A DNA stretch of 64,000 bases from an uncultured Hyphomicrobiales bacterium (GTDB lineage Bacteria; Pseudomonadota; Alphaproteobacteria; Rhizobiales; Devosiaceae), in contig CAIKKY010000019.1 in assembly GCA_903828145.1 (NCBI GenBank), positions 1 through 64,000 on the forward strand. The letters run 5' to 3'. The translations under genes were made by a program, and so were the position numbers. The notes below the pieces were generated by a model. That model made no database searches, was not told the DNA's origin, and saw only the letters and a list, made by a program, of their open reading frames with translations. Each line of letters begins with the position of its first letter. The first letter of the stretch is position 1. Positions 1 to 42,234 of this stretch are shown piece by piece.

Positions 1-1
1 C

Positions 2-4051
<4,050 letters not shown>

Positions 4052-5484: not shown

Positions 5485-5955
5485 ATGTCCCGTCGTCACA
5501 GCGCCGAGAAGCGTGAAGTCAACCCGGATCCGAAGTTTGGTGACCTCGTGGTCTCCAAGTTCATGAATTCGCTCATGCAGGACGGCAAGAAGTCCGTCGC
5601 CGAGTCCATCGTTTACGGTGCATTCGATATCGTGCAGACGAAGCTGAAGCAGGATCCGGTGTCAGTGTTCCACACTGCGCTCGATAATATCCGTCCCGCC
5701 GTGGAAGTCCGCTCTCGCCGTGTTGGTGGCGCGACCTACCAGGTGCCGGTTGAAGTTCGTACCGACCGTCAGCAGGCTCTGGCCATTCGCTGGCTGATCG
5801 AATCCGCCCGCAAGCGCGGTGAGCACACCATGCGTGAACGCCTCTCCGGCGAGCTCATGGATGCCGTGAACGGCCGCGGTCAGGCCGTCAAGAAACGCGA
5901 AGACACGCATCGTATGGCTGATGCCAACCGTGCCTTCTCGCACTACCGCTGGTAA
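5485..5955 (+). CDS. rpsG: 30S ribosomal protein S7
   Basis: A 156-residue primary binder of the 3' major domain of 16S rRNA that organises the 30S head. It has the usual bacterial length, begins [12 protein letters not shown] and ends HYRW as in many proteobacteria. AAGGAG at 5471-5476 is the ribosome site. It is second in the str operon, 12 bases after rpsL and 18 bases before fusA. In E. coli S7 represses translation of this operon; no homologous site was recognised here. Confidence 0.98.
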
Positions 5956-33572: not shown

Positions 33573-34283
33573 TCACCTGCTGGGGCCGAAAACGGCGTCA
33601 AATTCGCCCCGCAGCGCGGCATCGACCTCGGCCAGCATCACGAGCTGCCCCAGATCTTCGAGGCTGGTGACCCCCTGATCGGTAATGCCGCAGGGGACAA
33701 TGCCCGAAAAATGCGTGAGGTCCGGGCTCACATTGATCGACAGCCCGTGAAAGCTGACCCAGCGCCGCACCCGGACGCCGACGGCGGCAATCTTATCCTC
33801 GCGGAGCGGCGCCTTTTCCGGGCGGCGGACCCAGACGCCGACGCGGCCCGAACGCAGTTCGCCGGTAATGGTGAAGCGCGCAAGCGTGGCGATGATCCAC
33901 TGTTCAAGCCCTGTCACAAAGCGGTGCAGGTCGCGCCCGCGCTGGTTGAGATCGAGCATCACATAGACAACCCGCTGGCCGGGGCCATGATAGGTGTATT
34001 GCCCGCCGCGCCCGGCTGAAAACACCGGGAATCGGGTTTTGTCGAGCAGGTCTTCGGGCTTGGCCGAGGTGCCCGCGGTGTACAGCGGCGGGTGTTCGAG
34101 GAGCCAGATGAGTTCGGGGGCGGTGCCTTCGGCAATCGCCGCAACGCGGGCGTCCATCTCGGCGACGGCCAGCGCATAGGGCACGGGGCTATCGCTGATG
34201 CGCCACTCGACCGGTTGCGCATCGGCGCGGACGAGCGGGGCAAAATCAGGGTTTACCCTTAACGATTGATTAAGCGCGCTCAT
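33573..34283 (-). CDS. lipB: Octanoyl-[ACP]:protein N-octanoyltransferase LipB
   Basis: A 236-residue enzyme moving octanoate from acyl carrier protein to lipoyl domains, the first step of lipoate assembly completed by LipA (62568-63518). Catalytic Cys198 is in [15 protein letters not shown] and Lys164 in [18 protein letters not shown]. The [11 protein letters not shown] motif is present. The ATG at 34283 has GGAG 5 bases upstream; an ATG at 34316 would add 11 residues. It is divergent from the FliN-like gene. Confidence 0.93.
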
Positions 34284-34342
34284 GGAGGCTCCGGGAAGAG
34301 AACGGGGTGATTCCATGCGCCCCGCCAGCGTGGATTGGTCTG

Positions 34343-34576
34343 ATGGATAACCTAAACACCATTGATGTCGAGATCACGGTTGAACTGGGGGCTGCCACCA
34401 TGCCCATTCACCACCTGCTGCGGCTCGGCCGTGGCGCGGTGATTGAACTCGATGCCACCGAACATGACACGATGCGGGTCTATGCCAACAGCACACTGAT
34501 TGCGCGGGCCGAGATCCGCATTGACGATGGGCGGGTCAATGTCGAGATCACCGAAAAGCTGCGCCGAGCGGCCTGA
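34343..34576 (+). CDS. Stand-alone FliN/SpoA-domain protein
   Basis: A 77-residue protein consisting almost only of a SpoA (FliN/FliM C-terminal) domain: [29 protein letters not shown], then [24 protein letters not shown]. In flagellar motors this domain forms the switch ring. No other flagellar gene is nearby, and the N-terminal part of a typical FliN is missing. It may be a diverged paralogue or a motor component encoded away from the flagellar cluster. Confidence 0.75.
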
Positions 34577-34692: not shown

Positions 34693-34777
34693 GCGGTCGT
34701 GGCGGAATTGGTAGACGCGCAGCGTTGAGGTCGCTGTGCCGCAAGGCGTGGAAGTTCGAGTCTTCTCGACCGCACCA
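34693..34777 (+). tRNA. tRNA-Leu (anticodon GAG)
   Basis: An 85-base class II tRNA. The acceptor stem is GCGGTCG / CGACCGC and the 3' end ACCA is encoded. The D-loop is TGGCGGAATTGGTAGACGC. The anticodon stem CAGCG / CGCTG encloses TTGAGGT, giving anticodon GAG for CUC and CUU codons. A long variable arm (TGCCGCAAGGCG) and the TTCGAGTC T-loop confirm leucine type. It lies next to the AT-rich DUF262 gene. Confidence 0.96.
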
Positions 34778-34800
34778 GGGTCTTTCAGGACCAGATCAAA

Positions 34801-34828
34801 AAAAGGCAGCCCCGCGGCTGCCTTTTTG
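34801..34828 (+). terminator. Bidirectional terminator between tRNA-Leu and the DUF262 gene
   Basis: GGCAGCC (34805-34811), loop CCGC, and GGCTGCC (34816-34822) are flanked by AAAA and TTTTT. On the minus strand the stem is followed by seven T residues. It therefore can stop both the tRNA transcript and the convergent DUF262 transcript. Confidence 0.88.
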
Positions 34829-34841
34829 CTTTTTGGCGGTG

Positions 34842-36410
34842 TCACATGCACAGTGAGGTTGCAAACTCTGCCAGCTTTGCTGCACGCTCCACGACAAATT
34901 TTGAATAACTATCTGTGAAAATTGTGTCCGGGATAAAAGCGGTTTCAAACATTTCTCTATAATTGGGTGCCAGATCGGACTTGTATAACGAAGGAGCCCT
35001 TCCACCTAATCTTCTGTTATCTGTTCGAGACAGGAAGCAAATATTAGCTAGGATGTTGTCGTGATGATCGGCCTGCTGGCTTTTCTTCAAGAAGTCTTTC
35101 GGCATTATGTGGTGAAATTCTGAGCGGTTGGCGGCTTTCAATGTTTTCGCAAGGTCTACCTTACTGCCAGAAACGAAACTTACTGGATTCTTCTGCGCTA
35201 ACATTAGAATGAATGTTTTTGAATTTACATTTCCTAGTCCAAATTTATTGTGAGTAAAAAAATCTTTCTCGATGTTTAATGGAAACTCCCCAAGTGAAGA
35301 TTCAGTATCTTCACGCAAATTATTCATCTGCAATATGTCGGTTTTCAAGTTTCGTAGAACGCCTGAGCTATACCGCTTAGAGAATGCTGAACGCCAAAAC
35401 CAGCGGGTAATTCTCTTCTTTTGGCTATCAGTGTAGGAAACTTCAGAGTTTCCGGAGGCCGCGAAGAAAACCGCTAAAGGAACGAGTAGTGTAGAGAACG
35501 GCAGGTTGTTCAGACTCTCTGCTTTAAGATTTTTTCGTAGGAAATCTACAGCACCTCGTACCCCGTTCGTTACTCTGTCGAATTGCTGCCTAACCTGAGT
35601 CCCGTTGAGCTGCATCAAAGCGTTGGGAGACGCATCGCCCGACAAGACTGCCGAACAGCATCTTAGCAAAAGATCGGTATCCCCTCCCACGTCTTCAAAT
35701 CCAAATGGCGAAAGTTCCTCCGCAAGTTCCTCGAACTGATCCTGCAATTGAAAGTCCTCGCTCCAAGTCCATGCGGAAAGTAGCTGGAGTGTATTTAAGT
35801 CCACACCTTGCCTATTAACTCGCTCGAAAATAATTGCAACAGTAGCCTTATCTTCGGTTTTGGAGATTTGAAATGGGATTCGAGCTTCTTTGAAGCGTTC
35901 CTGCATTTCATCTAATTTATTTATAACATCCTTCCGCCGTCCCTCGGTTGTAGATCGATAGGCAGCACTGTCAAATAGTGTGTTTAAAGGAAAATGCCGG
36001 TCGGCCACAACTTCGTCTGATTTCAGAGCTACAAACCGAGTATCTTGCGGGGTAAAATTGGCTTCTAAGTCATAATAAACTTCTAACCAATCGCTATCAG
36101 ATTTTTTCTTCATTCCTTGTTGGAAAACGCCAAATATAGAGGTAACTCGTTGCTGTCCATCTAATACATAGTCTACGGGATAGTCTTCTTTTGGCGATGG
36201 TAAAACAAACGGACCTATTTCTTTGTCGAATTTCAGTTGCTCTCTAGTGCGCCAAAACATTAATGAGCCAAATGGATAGCCTTTATAAATGCTGTCCATT
36301 AAATACGCGACTCTCTCCGGCTCCCAAACGAATCCACGCTGAAACGCTGGAATTCGAATTTGGCCTCGCCCCACCATGTCGATGAGTTCCCTAATGCTTA
36401 AAGTTTCCAA
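34842..36410 (-). CDS. DUF262/HNH protein of the GmrSD type (putative defence nuclease)
   Basis: About 522 residues. The N-terminal DUF262 (GmrS-like) domain shows IPAFQRGFVWEPERVAYLMDSI, the DGQQR motif (VLDGQQRVTSI) and FERVNRQGVDLNTLQLL. The C-terminal part has the HNH/DUF1524-like pattern EFHHIMPKDFL, then NILANICFLSRTDNRRLGG. GmrSD-type enzymes are known as type IV restriction systems cutting glucosylated cytosine DNA; this target is not predictable here. TTG at 36410 with GGAGG 5 bases upstream is preferred to GTG at 36422. The gene is AT-rich compared with its neighbours and lies beside a tRNA gene, so horizontal transfer is likely. Confidence 0.85.
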   Translation of the reverse strand: METLSIRELIDMVGRGQIRIPAFQRGFVWEPERVAYLMDSIYKGYPFGSLMFWRTREQLKFDKEIGPFVLPSPKEDYPVDYVLDGQQRVTSIFGVFQQGMKKKSDSDWLEVYYDLEANFTPQDTRFVALKSDEVVADRHFPLNTLFDSAAYRSTTEGRRKDVINKLDEMQERFKEARIPFQISKTEDKATVAIIFERVNRQGVDLNTLQLLSAWTWSEDFQLQDQFEELAEELSPFGFEDVGGDTDLLLRCCSAVLSGDASPNALMQLNGTQVRQQFDRVTNGVRGAVDFLRKNLKAESLNNLPFSTLLVPLAVFFAASGNSEVSYTDSQKKRITRWFWRSAFSKRYSSGVLRNLKTDILQMNNLREDTESSLGEFPLNIEKDFFTHNKFGLGNVNSKTFILMLAQKNPVSFVSGSKVDLAKTLKAANRSEFHHIMPKDFLKKSQQADHHDNILANICFLSRTDNRRLGGRAPSLYKSDLAPNYREMFETAFIPDTIFTDSYSKFVVERAAKLAEFATSLCM

Positions 36411-36474
36411 TCTGGCCTCCACAGCTCAAGTAACTTCACACTATTGCCTAAATTCTTTCAAGGGTTGAAGTATT

Positions 36475-37671
36475 TTAGGTTATAGCATCGTGTAACTTTA
36501 CCCCCCGCCACCCATACCACCCCAGTACCAGCGCGCTCGCCCCTAGCCAGGGCAGCAGCAGCAGGTTCATTGCCTGCCAGCCGATACTGGCGTGCAGCAT
36601 CGATGCGCCGAGCGAGGCGCTGAGGCCCACGAGATAGACAATGAAATCATTGGTCGCCTGCGCGCGGGCCTTTTCGGCCGGTCGATAGGCGCGGGTCAAC
36701 AGTGTGGTGCCGCCCACATAAAGGAAGTTCCACCCGAGACCGAGCAGCACCAGGGCGGCGGCAAAGCTTGGGAAGGTGAAGCCCGTGAGGGTGAGGAGCA
36801 CATGGCCGGTGAGCAGGATCAGGCCCGTCGCCATGATCGGCAGTACGCCAAAACGGGCGATCAGCGTGCCGGTGAAGAACGACGGCAGGAACATGCCGAG
36901 CACGTGGAGCTGGATCACCGTCGCCGTGGCCGTCAGCCCGTGCTGGTGGTGCGCCATGGCGATGGGCGTGGCGGTCATGGCGAGGATCATGACTCCATAG
37001 GCGGTGAGTGCGGAAAACAGCGCCACGCGATAGATCGGCTGGCCGATCATGACAAGAAGCGGACGGGGCGGCTCAGCGGCAGCGCTTCTCAATTCGGGCG
37101 GTACAACGAGCCCCCGCAGCACCACCATGGCCGCGAGGCCGAGGAGGCCCGCGACCATGAAGGCGGTAATAAAGCCCTGCCCACCCGTCAGTGCGCCCAC
37201 CTGCGCCACCAGCGGGCCGGCAAAGGCGGCGACAACACCACCAGCAATGACCAGCGAAATGGCGCGCGGGCGAAAGGCGTCGCTTGCAACTTCGGCGGCG
37301 GCGAAGCGGTAATATTGCGCAAAGCCCTGATAGGTGCCGATCAGCCCGGTGCCGAGCACGAGGAGCGCCAGTGAGCCCAATGCGAGGCCGAGGGCGGCCA
37401 CCAGCGCGCCGAGCGTGCCCAGCCCGGCCCCCAGCACAAAACCGGCGGAGCGGCCGCGCTTGGCCATGTAGGCCGAGGCGGGGATCATGGTGGCGGCTGC
37501 GCCAAAAAAGAAGGCGGCGATGGGCGCTGTGGCCCATTCCGGCGACGGCGCCAGCGCCGCTCCCGCGAGCCCGCCCACGGTAATGACCAAAACCGACACG
37601 GTTTGAAACAGCGCCTGCGCGCCCGCAAGCCGGGCAACCTGGGCATACATGGAGCGGGAATCAGCGGTCAT
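36475..37671 (-). CDS. Major facilitator superfamily transporter
   Basis: A 398-residue inner-membrane protein with about twelve hydrophobic helices. It begins MTADSRSMYAQVARLAGAQA from ATG 37671. An MFS-like short basic loop (MAKRGRSAG) follows helix 2, and the second half is marked by FTGTLIARFGVLPIM. The substrate is unknown. The last codons (about KLHDAIT) lie in the AT-rich DNA joined to the DUF262 gene, so the C-terminus may have been altered by the insertion. A palindrome lies 43 bases upstream. Confidence 0.85.
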   Translation of the reverse strand: MTADSRSMYAQVARLAGAQALFQTVSVLVITVGGLAGAALAPSPEWATAPIAAFFFGAAATMIPASAYMAKRGRSAGFVLGAGLGTLGALVAALGLALGSLALLVLGTGLIGTYQGFAQYYRFAAAEVASDAFRPRAISLVIAGGVVAAFAGPLVAQVGALTGGQGFITAFMVAGLLGLAAMVVLRGLVVPPELRSAAAEPPRPLLVMIGQPIYRVALFSALTAYGVMILAMTATPIAMAHHQHGLTATATVIQLHVLGMFLPSFFTGTLIARFGVLPIMATGLILLTGHVLLTLTGFTFPSFAAALVLLGLGWNFLYVGGTTLLTRAYRPAEKARAQATNDFIVYLVGLSASLGASMLHASIGWQAMNLLLLPWLGASALVLGWYGWRGVKLHDAIT

Positions 37672-37702
37672 GAGGGTCTCGGGGCTGGAGGTTTGCTGTA
37701 TT

Positions 37703-37736
37703 GGCACTGGCATTGGTTTGCAGGCAAACCAGTGCC
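37703..37736 (-). promoter_or_regulatory. Nested palindrome upstream of the MFS gene
   Basis: TGGTTTGC (37714-37721), AG, GCAAACCA (37724-37731) is a perfect 8+2+8 inverted repeat. An outer pair, GGCACTGG (37703-37710) and CCAGTGCC (37729-37736), is also complementary. It lies 43 bases before the start of the transporter gene, where a TetR-, MarR- or LysR-type regulator would bind. No regulator gene is adjacent. Confidence 0.5.
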
Positions 37737-38493: not shown

Positions 38494-41400
38494 TTATCCC
38501 TTGGGCACATAATTCAGCACCGGGCCGAGCCAGCGCTCGACCTCGCGCGTGTCCATGCCCTTGCGGGCGGCGTAGTCTTCCACCTGATCGCGCTCGACTT
38601 TGGCCACGCCGAAATAATAGCTGTCGGGATGGCTGAGATAGAGCCCCGACACTGAGGCGCCGGGCCACATGGCGTAGCTTTCGGTCAGCTTCACGCCAAT
38701 GCGCTGCGTGGCATTCAACAGCCGGAACAGCGTGGTCTTTTCGGTGTGGTCGGGCTGCGCCGGATAGCCGGGAGCCGGGCGGATGCCGAGATAGGGCTCC
38801 TGAATGAGCTGATCGGGGGCAAAGCCCTCGTCAGGCGCATAGGCCCAGAATTCCTTACGCACCCGCTCGTGCATCAGTTCGGCGAACGCCTCGGCAAAGC
38901 GGTCGGCCAGCGCCTTGATGAGAATGGCCGAATAATCATCGCCCTTTTTCTCGAAGGCGGCGGCAATGCCGTCTTCTTCAAGCCCGGTGGTCACGACAAA
39001 GCCGCCAATGTAATCGGGCGTGCCCTCGGGCAGCACAAAATCAGCAAGCGCGAGGTTGGGCTTGTCGCCGGTTTTGCTCAACTGCTGGCGCAGTGTGTAG
39101 AAGGTCGCAAGGTCCACGGTGCGGCTGTCATCGGTGAAGACCCGGATGTCGTCGCCCACCTGATTGGCCGGCCAGAAACCGATGATCGCCTTGGGGCGGA
39201 ACCAGTTTTTCTGGATGATGACGGCCAGTTGCCGCTGCGCGTCGTCCCACAGCGCCCGGGCGGCAGCGCCCTGCGTTTTGTCGTCCAGAATGGCCGGGTA
39301 GCGGCCCTTCAGTTCCCAGGCCTGAAAGAACGGCGTCCAGTCAATATAACGCGCTATTTCAGCGAGATCATAGTTTTCGAACACGCGGGTCCCGAGAAAG
39401 CTCGGCTTTTTGGGGCGATAGGCCGGATCGGCTGGGCGGAACCGGTTGGCGCGCGCCGCGGCGAGGCTGATGCGCTCCTTGTCGGCTTCGCCCTTGAGAT
39501 GCTTGGCTTTGAGCGCCTCATAATCGGTGCGGATCTGGGCGGTGTAGTCGGGGCGCTGCTCGTTGGACAGGAGCGCCGAGACCACGCCCACAGCGCGGCT
39601 GGCATCGTGCACATGCACCACCGCGCCGGAATAGGCCGGGGCGATTTTCACGGCCGTGTGCATGCGGCTCGTGGTGGCGCCGCCGATCAGCAGAGGCACG
39701 GTGAAGCCATCGCGCTCCATTTCGTTCGCCACATGCACCATCTCATCGAGCGAGGGGGTGATGAGGCCCGAAAGGCCGATCACGTCGACATTTTCCGCCT
39801 TGGCTACTTCAAGAATTCTGGCGGTGGGCACCATGACGCCGAGATCGATGATCTCGTAATTATTGCAGCTGAGCACCACGCCGACGATGTTCTTGCCGAT
39901 ATCGTGCACGTCGCCCTTCACCGTCGCCATCAGAATCCGGCCGGCGGTCGAGCGGCCAGTGCCGCCGTTCGCGGCTTTTTCGGCCTCCATATAGGGCAGC
40001 AGCAGCGCCACGGCCTGCTTCATGACGCGGGCGGATTTCACCACCTGGGGCAGGAACATCTTGCCTGCGCCGAACAGGTCGCCCACCACGCTCATGCCGC
40101 TCATCAGCGGGCCTTCGATCACGTCCAGCGGGCGCGGCAGCTTGAGCCGGGCTTCCTCGGTATCGGCATCAATGAATTCAGCAATGCCATTGACGAGGGC
40201 GTGGGTGATGCGGGCTTCAACGGGTTCTGACCGCCAGGCGAGATCGCGCGCCTTCTGTTCGCCACCGGCCTGGCCGCGATAGCGTTCGGCAATCTCGAGC
40301 AGACGCTCGGTGGCGTGGGTGAGGCGGTTGAGGATCACATCTTCGGCCGCCGCGCGGAGGTCGGCGTCGATTGAATCATACACCGCGAGCTGCCCGGCAT
40401 TCACAATGCCCATGTCCATACCGGCCTTGATGGCGTGGTAGAGGAACACCGCGTGCATGGCCTCGCGCACCGGCTCATTGCCGCGGAACGAGAAGGACAG
40501 GTTGGAAACACCGCCCGAAATATGCACATGGGGCAGGGTGGTGCGGATGGTGCGGATCGCCTCGAGGAAAGCCACGCCATAGGGAGCGTGTTCCTCGATG
40601 CCGGTCGCTACCGCGAAGATATTGGGGTCGAAAATGATGTCTTCGGGCGGGAAACCGGCCTCTTGGGTCAAGAGGGCGTAGGCCCGTGTACAGATCGCCA
40701 CCTTGCGCTCGTAGGTGTCGGCCTGGCCCTGCTCATCAAAGGCCATGACGACGACAGCGGCGCCGTAATCGCGCACTTTTTTCGCGGCTTCGAGGAATTT
40801 CGCCTCGCCCTCTTTCATCGAGATCGAGTTGACGAGGGCCTTGCCCTGCACGCATTTCAACCCGGCCTCAATGACCTCGAATTTCGAGGAATCGATCATC
40901 AGCGGCACGCGCGCAATATCGGGTTCGGCGGCCAGCAGGTTGAGGAAGTCGCGCATGGCCTTTTCGCTGTCGATCAGGCCTTCGTCCATGTTGATGTCGA
41001 TGATCTGCGCGCCGTTCTGCACCTGATCGCGCGCCACTTCGAGGGCGGCCGCGTAATCCCCGGCGGTGATGAGCTTGCGAAAGCGCGCCGAGCCCGTGAC
41101 ATTGGTGCGCTCACCAATGTTCACGAAGGGGATTTCGCTGGTGAGGGTGAACGGCTCAAGGCCCGAGAGCCGGAGGCGCACCGGAACCTCGGGGATCTGG
41201 CGGGGCGCGTATTTCGACACGGCTTCGCGGATGGCGCGGATGTGATCGGGCGTCGAGCCGCAGCAGCCACCCACGATATTGAGCAGCCCCTCGCGGGCGA
41301 AGCCTTCGAGCTGGCGCGCCATATCCTCGGGGGTTTCGTCATAGCCGCCAAATTCATTGGGCAGGCCCGCATTGGGATAGGCGCAGATCAGCGTATCGGC

Positions 41401-42234
41401 GACATCGCTCAACTCGGCGATATGGGCGCGCATGGCATTGGCGCCGAGCGCACAGTTGAGCCCGATGGTCAGCGGGTTGGCGTGGCGTACCGAGTACCAG
41501 AAGGCGGTGGGCGTCTGGCCCGACAGCGTGCGCCCGGATAAGTCGGTGATCGTGCCCGAAATCATGATGGGCAGGGCATTGCCACGCGCTTCAAACACCC
41601 GGCGGGCGGCAAAAATACCGGCCTTGGTGTTGAGCGTGTCGGTAATGGTTTCAAACAGCAGCAGGTCGGCCCCGCCGTCCATCAGCCCGTTGATGGCCGT
41701 GGTATAGGCGCGCACAATATCATCGAAGGTGACGGCCCGGTGGCCGGGGCTCGTGACATCGGTCGACATGGAGGCGGTCTTGTTGAGCGGGCCCAGCGCG
41801 CCGGCCACAAAGCGGCGTCTGCCATCCTTGCTTTCAGCGGCCGCTGCCGCCGCGCGCGCGAGCTGGGCGCCGGTGAAGTTCAGCTCATAGGCCAGCGCTT
41901 CCATCCCGTAATCGGCCATGACGATATCGGTGGCGGAGAAGGTGTTGGTTTCGCAGATATCGGCCCCGGCCTCGAAATACTCGAGGTGAATGGCGGCAAT
42001 GGCGTCGGGCCGGGTGATGTTGAGCAGGTCGTTATTGCCGCGCAGGTCCTTGTGCCAGGTCGCAAAGCGGTCGCCGCGGTAGTCCTCTTCGGTCAGCTTC
42101 AGCCGCTGGATCATCGTGCCCATGGCGCCATCGAGGATGAGGATGCGCTCGCGCGCTGCGGCGCTGAGGGCGGCCCGCACGTCGCTGCCCTGGGGCAGGC
42201 TCGCCGGGTCAATCACAATCGGGGCAGTGGTCAT
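38494..42234 (-). CDS. metH: Cobalamin-dependent methionine synthase
   Basis: A 1246-residue, four-module enzyme that methylates homocysteine using methyltetrahydrofolate. The homocysteine module (about 25-350) has its zinc cysteines in GLNC and GGCCGST. The pterin module is about 360-640 ([13 protein letters not shown]). The B12 module has GDVHDIGKN with cobalt-ligand His776. The C-terminal module is the SAM-dependent reactivation domain. The start is ATG 42234. A palindromic operator-like site lies 48 bases upstream. Confidence 0.97.

Follow-up and report, generated by a model that had tools for sequence, protein, structure and literature searches.

The GmrSD family of Type IV restriction enzymes is usually encountered as a fused, single-chain protein, and the published neighborhoods of its genes abound in Type I restriction-modification and other defense genes (PMC4619093). 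BrxU of Escherichia fergusonii (PDB 7p9k/7p9m), a member of this family, requires S42, Q101, R102, D474, and H475 for activity; N485 is dispensable, and N519 matters mainly in vivo (PMC8565348). Its order of preference is reported as glucosylated hydroxymethylcytosine, then 5-methylcytosine (5mC), then 5-hydroxymethylcytosine (5hmC) (PMC12409352). In this report, we examined 64,000 nucleotides of DNA (“the window”) from an uncultured Hyphomicrobiales bacterium of the Devosiaceae (contig CAIKKY010000019.1, positions 1 to 64,000 of the forward strand), and found that it harbors a gene for a single-chain DUF262-HNH protein. We consider it likely that this gene is a horizontally acquired member of the GmrSD/BrxU-like Type IV restriction endonucleases whose activity would depend on a nucleoside triphosphate and on modified DNA.

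The coding sequence occupies 34842..36410 on the minus strand. The listed open reading frame (ORF; 34842-36422, minus strand, 526 codons) begins with GTG; a TTG codon at 36410 is preceded by GGAGG, and the N-termini of homologs (MExLSIR) begin at the same residue. A product of 522 residues (522 codons and a stop) is therefore likely. With this start, the product has the length that a sequence-only reading of the window had given it; the DGQQR and the C-terminal HHIMPKDF...NRR pattern are present as well. That reading's assignment of the protein to the GmrSD type is borne out by profile and fold alike. The only Pfam match is GmrSD_N (PF03235; 3.3e-31, residues 11-218 of the GTG-started ORF), a domain found in 25 of 26 aligned sequences, the window protein included. 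NCBIfam gives no match for the DUF262-HNH protein, and a profile built from nine relatives identifies BrxU (7p9k) at 3.7e-25.

The fold comparison rests on an AlphaFold model made from 26 aligned rows (mean pLDDT 88.2), which replaced a poor one made from 10 rows (pLDDT 63.6). The alignments behind it exclude L008 (in-frame stop), L012 and L099 (frameshifted), the plasmid loci, and some loci from the genome searches; alignment A4 is also without L150, L165, and L167, for reasons of length, and L153, L155, and L157, taken as near-duplicates. With this model, BrxU is the best solved match in Foldseek (3.0e-14), and VIA-align 2 superposes 468 of 521 residues with a Z-score of 17.7 (model 1..521 on chain 4..579). 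The C-terminal part of the predicted model has an HNH fold, arranged as in BrxU. DGQQR (83-87, model numbering) is present in 24 of the 26 rows, the others being one that lacks the region and one that reads DGHQR. HHxxP occurs in 25 of 26; in the window protein it takes the form HHIMP, not DHIYP. The D-S of the first motif, which reads LMDS in the window protein where the BrxU type has RLFDS, is also kept in nearly all 26 rows together with two N residues; L166 departs from this pattern and L014 is a partial row. The motifs that contain the positions essential in BrxU are thus conserved in the window protein, with the single clear difference that H takes the place of D474.

From these features we infer that the window protein depends on nucleotides, cleaves DNA, and restricts phage. 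The N-terminal ParB/Srx-type DUF262 domain (LMDS, DGQQR) would bind and hydrolyze nucleotides and, when a modified base is met on the DNA, would license cleavage by the C-terminal HNH domain (HH, N, N), by which incoming phage DNA would be destroyed.

Several observations weigh against this reading. The rmsd of the whole-chain superposition on BrxU is high (16.9), so the domains are turned and placed differently, and the sequence identity to BrxU is only 18-19%. The PF07510 profile (DUF1524), which the sequence-only reading had named alongside PF03235, has no match in the window protein up to an E-value of 1 and is reached by 4 of the 26 relatives, with 0.019 as the best value; the first half of that expectation stands and the second does not. 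Further, no other defense gene was recognized at the window locus. The position of D474 carries H in the window protein, a residue that can stand in for aspartate as a metal ligand. In BrxU itself, the D474A substitution is inactivating (PMC8565348).

Host methylation supplies the last of these adverse points. If the clade to which the window protein belongs cut 5mC generally, its carriers should avoid m5C methyltransferases. Such an enzyme (PF00145) is present in 6 of 14 carriers and in 189 of 394 genomes of the order; there is no depletion, which speaks against 5mC cutting of the BrxU kind, in a sample that is small and with the methylases counted regardless of their sequence context. The window’s genome has no m5C methyltransferase, like approximately half of its order, and carries little weight alone. 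Because the carriers show no avoidance, a phage-type hypermodification appears to be favored, and a hypermodified cytosine, such as glucosylated hydroxymethylcytosine, is the likelier target over plain 5mC.

After BrxU, the next solved folds are DndI (Z 9.3) and SspE (Z 9.2, its C-terminal part), followed by single HNH domains of Cas9 (approximately residues 392-506 of the model) and ParB/Srx folds, with Z-scores up to 6.6. The PADLOC models for SspE also match weakly (1.5e-5). SspE and DndI depend on phosphorothioate systems, and the window protein could by analogy be a phosphorothioate-dependent nuclease that works only alongside a host Dnd or Ssp modification system. We judge this improbable: BrxU fits far better, and no Dnd or Ssp model is among 25 of 77 PADLOC families for the 91 ORFs that neighbor the gene in 11 relatives (L004-L014), although the rest of the genome was not searched for dnd or ssp genes.

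The same 91 ORFs, which come from a naive caller and include some spurious ones, bear on a further alternative, namely that its defense works through death or arrest of the infected cell, or that the protein is one subunit of a multi-gene system. Its best PADLOC models are PDC-M55C (6.2e-60; 201 bits, residues 9-450 of 526, ending within the HNH domain) and HEC-05 (5.7e-32), both of them candidates; the former, to judge by its name, is presumably one part of a multi-gene candidate. DUF262 domains are also present in Menshen, Dazbog, and PD-T4-2 (PMC10952713). The neighbors, however, provide no recurrent partner: at an E-value of 1e-5, each Pfam family is confined to 2 of the 91 ORFs at most. 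Both catalytic domains, moreover, reside on one chain. The PADLOC matches of these neighbors (again 25 of 77 families) are to UvrD-type and TatD-type housekeeping genes and to one methyltransferase, in L005. The gene likewise stands single at the window locus, as the sequence-only reading had stated. An abortive or multi-subunit system is thus an unlikely account, if less so than a phosphorothioate-dependent one. The L014 locus also has an ORF that consists of repeated TIHHSPF units (L014:1786-2070); this short tandem repeat adjoins a murI-like gene.

The composition of the gene sets it apart from its surroundings, and markedly so, as the earlier reading had noticed. Its coding sequence has a GC content of 0.435, whereas the 3-kb flanks have 0.626 and 0.645. 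Among the 31 called ORFs of the window that reach 300 amino acids (aa), its GC deficit of 0.199 is the largest, the next being 0.029. Its GC3 of 0.429 is likewise the minimum for the 33 called ORFs that reach 250 aa, followed by 0.593. A maximum-likelihood fit with two changepoints delimits an AT-rich segment at 34823..36500 (GC 0.431 vs 0.639 outside), which we take as inserted DNA. It includes an AT-rich leader (36411..36474, minus strand, GC 0.41) between the stop of an MFS transporter ORF (36475..37713, minus strand; PF07690, 1.6e-14) and the DUF262 start. The border at 36500 cuts into the final codons of the MFS ORF. Among the matches listed, similarity of this ORF to its nearest congener homologs stops at residues 383-404 of 412, so its 3′ end may have been replaced by the insertion.

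A close homolog exists in 1 of 19 genomes of the genus, the window’s own, and in none of the 18 congeners (G015 gives only partial matches, at 27-36%), some of these assemblies being incomplete (82-100%). The gene is accordingly not shared by close relatives, and it is likely foreign and horizontally acquired. On one side of it lie a terminator-like, 12-bp perfect inverted repeat with a T-run (a hairpin, 34800..34827), a tRNA-Leu(GAG) gene (34693..34777, plus strand), and a LipB-like lipoyl/octanoyl transferase gene (33573..34316, minus strand; PF21948, 2.6e-37), which is the left neighbor of the tRNA across the genus. The sequence-only reading had the gene starting right after the tRNA and terminator; because it is on the minus strand, convergent with the tRNA gene, it is its 3′ end that faces them. 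On the other side, beyond the MFS ORF, is metH, encoding the B12-dependent methionine synthase (38494..42234, minus strand; PF02965, 7.7e-120). The space that separates the LipB-like gene from the tRNA contains a small ORF (window 34307-34576) for a FliN-type C-ring domain (PF01052, 4.8e-18), with no flagellar gene adjoining it by eye.

The tRNA-Leu(GAG) gene adjoins the LipB-like gene in 16 of the 18 congeners, inverted in one (G007, stretch L087); in the other 2 the contig ends. Seventeen congener stretches entered the comparison from the tRNA to metH, G010 having no usable one. Ten of them reach metH, and all ten retain tRNA-Leu and metH with unrelated DNA between: homology extends to the end of the tRNA (34777-34789), breaks off, and resumes at metH (38499-38522), the intervening DNA measuring 844 to 4810 bp. 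Among the other seven, four (L087, L088, L090, and L095) have no metH match in 11-12 kb, so the neighborhood differs there, and three are too short. As its contents differ as a whole in the 10 congeners, for which metH is the right border, the tRNA-Leu-metH interval is a variable one. What the congeners hold in it, e.g. an apparent cation ATPase and a MerR-like regulator (by eye), was in no case recognized as defense.

Position beside tRNA-Leu invites the idea that the gene is the remnant of an element carried in by an integrase, and the sequence-only reading had indeed called it defense cargo at a tRNA hotspot. Some relatives lend support to this idea at the level of the family. In one (L005, 68-6900), the 4.3 kb before the gene contain a methyltransferase (MTase_II, 6.9e-83) and, approximately 2.6-4.3 kb away, a serine recombinase (6.7e-25) and a tRNA-Met at the contig end. 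In another (L006, 5721-7968), the gene follows a tRNA-Met (5721-5796) at a distance of approximately 200 bp and is itself followed directly by an AlpA-type regulator (8.5e-10); an integrase adjoins the viral-contig relative L163. In the window, however, no repeat of the tRNA 3′ end is found at the far border, the rest of the window offering only a chance run of 11 bases, and the list of ORFs contains, by eye, no integrase or other mobility gene between the tRNA and metH. The adjoining MFS gene is not GC-poor, and even in L006 the tRNA end is not repeated in the 7.7 kb beyond. We therefore consider an integrase-borne remnant improbable here. The defense part of the earlier claim is likely to be right, and its “hotspot” holds in the sense of a variable spot, with no sign of an integrase site in the window. 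For the arrival of the gene, recombination between conserved flanking genes at a gap that tolerates insertions would suffice, and some relatives are evidently carried on mobile elements. The surroundings of L005 and L006 likely are such elements, and those of a plasmid copy (L100), with a Type ISP enzyme and Tn7-like genes nearby, look like one.

The relatives of the gene range from 30 to 67% identity; most of them are single genes of low GC content, located either between core genes or on viral contigs. At 53-67% identity they derive from Azospirillum, Gluconacetobacter, Mesorhizobium, Stenotrophomonas, Paeniroseomonas, two Bryobacterales, and four further records (one labeled Mesoflavibacter); copies on plasmids of Agrobacterium, Rhizobium, and Paraburkholderia are 50-67% identical. 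The gene is rare: at an E-value of 1e-60, the order has it in 6 of 397 genomes and a sample of the class in 2 of 385, with its own genome counted in both. In the phylogenetic tree, a clade of nine rows (support 100/99) unites alphaproteobacterial, gammaproteobacterial, acidobacterial, and unassigned copies, and within it the acidobacterial copy pairs with a gammaproteobacterial one (89/94, not starred). This clade, together with the replacement of DHIYP by HHxxP, suggests a subgroup on sequence grounds. The subgroup is not the one proposed earlier on the basis of both domains being in one protein, since members of the family usually have the two fused (PMC4619093).

Low GC content is a property of the relatives as well. 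In a table of 34 copies (without L153, L155, L156, and L164-L168), all 34 are poorer than their flanks, 30 by at least 5 points and 22 by at least 10; by contrast, 1 of 97 neighboring called ORFs at 18 of these loci is poorer by 5 points. The deficit is under 5 points in L161 (0.028) and in the three plasmid copies (0.003-0.034). Three copies are disrupted (an in-frame stop in L008, frameshifts in L012 and L099), and L150 may be a fourth. The frameshifted copy of L099 (7818-10475, on pAt15955) is followed at once by an MgtC module (PF02308, 3.7e-36) that is 98% identical to C58 pAt DNA; this region is a mosaic of small modules.

A search of viral contigs with the single protein gave no match, and one with alignment A2 gave 47 loci. 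Twenty-two of these were examined (L169-L193 were left out); 16 contributed to the alignment and the tree, and the GC table includes 14. One group in viral contigs (L152-L160) comprises DUF262-HNH proteins that are 33-37% identical, with 34-47% GC, some beside ORFs that look by eye like those of P2-type phages. No copy of the L154 gene was found in E. coli genomes, where the matches amounted to only 7% coverage in 2 genomes.

Two relatives from separate branches of the tree share one slot, the 3′ end of uvrD/pcrA. In G097, only 17 nt separate the stop of pcrA (UvrD domains, 1e-89) from the start of the gene, and at its other end the gene shares an ATGA overlap with the start codon of a gene for an enoyl-CoA hydratase. 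A congener, G054, has at this place, directly after pcrA, a DUF4145 gene (9.6e-13; L133:3032-3751) that matches PD-T7-4 (3.9e-73), which we take to be a single-gene defense. In Mesorhizobium (L013, 5755-7570), the gene is at the 3′ end of uvrD (1.1e-85) in an insert of 1.8 kb. Against 60 congeners, the left flank ends at query positions 855-869 and the right flank starts at 2665-2682, among the matches listed. Four candidates were scored per genome, and 15 stretches (L206-L220) were chosen (4 with abutting flanks and 11 with a gap), so the following counts are not frequencies. Four of the 15 sites are empty; there, by eye, 6-9 bp lie between the stop codons of two facing genes. The remaining 11 contain other inserts, from 267 to 8045 bp long. 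Two of these inserts encode KAP NTPases that match PDC-S20 (2.5e-78 and 3.1e-76). Further contents are an HNH protein with matches to PDC-M68A (8.1e-27) and to endonuclease effectors, a SocA/Panacea protein (8.4e-19), genes for sugar functions, and a bestrophin-like gene; five short inserts have no ORF of 160 aa.

Insertions as bare as those of G097 and of Mesorhizobium, along with the HNH fold of the predicted model, would fit a selfish gene that inserts itself by its own nuclease, in the manner of a free-standing homing endonuclease. Yet the same Mesorhizobium gap elsewhere contains unrelated genes (KAP NTPase, HNH, SocA-like), so the insertion property belongs to the site and not to the nuclease. 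Nor did inspection by eye reveal a common end sequence or a target duplication at the ends of the inserts. Self-insertion is accordingly very improbable. A broader idea is that a distinct HHxxP clade of GmrSD-like nucleases spreads from phylum to phylum, mostly in the form of bare single genes. These would lodge in very small spaces that separate core genes (tRNA-Leu/metH; stop-to-stop beside uvrD/pcrA) and be swapped there one for one with other single-gene defenses, the 3′ end of a repair helicase gene serving as a general slot for defense cassettes. We put this forward tentatively and regard it as rather doubtful; it is weakened by the 2 of 11 chromosomal relatives (L005 and L006) that are in likely mobile elements. 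A literature search by titles and the beginnings of abstracts yielded no description of the HHxxP clade or of the uvrD/pcrA slot, which is no proof of absence.

If the window protein is a GmrSD/BrxU-like nuclease, this kind of enzyme gains a well-supported clade with an altered nuclease motif. The siting of the relatives is of more use than the protein itself, given that the two at the 3′ end of uvrD/pcrA share their place with a PD-T7-4 gene and defense candidates. This slot could be mined for single-gene defenses where neither defense islands nor mobile elements serve as guides.

How the protein stands among known systems can be put as follows. The best PADLOC models, PDC-M55C and HEC-05, are candidates, and no paper in the library searched names two of PDC-M55, HEC-05, and PADLOC. 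With SspE and DndI, the window protein has in common the DUF262 and HNH architecture and fold, whereas the fold score is lower and the solved entries have 771 and 594 residues. It shares the PF03235 domain and the fused, single-chain form with GmrSD and Eco94GmrSD, but PF07510 does not reach it. Unlike the published GmrSD neighborhoods, the window copy and most of the chromosomal relatives examined sit among core genes. The closest likeness is to BrxU, with which it shares a single chain of DUF262 followed by HNH, a fold match over the full length, and both DGQQR and the D-S of RLFDS. It differs from BrxU in length (522 residues versus 587), in the HHxxP that its clade has for DHIYP, in the location of its gene, which is not inside a BREX locus, and in the lack of any sign of conflict with host m5C methyltransferases.

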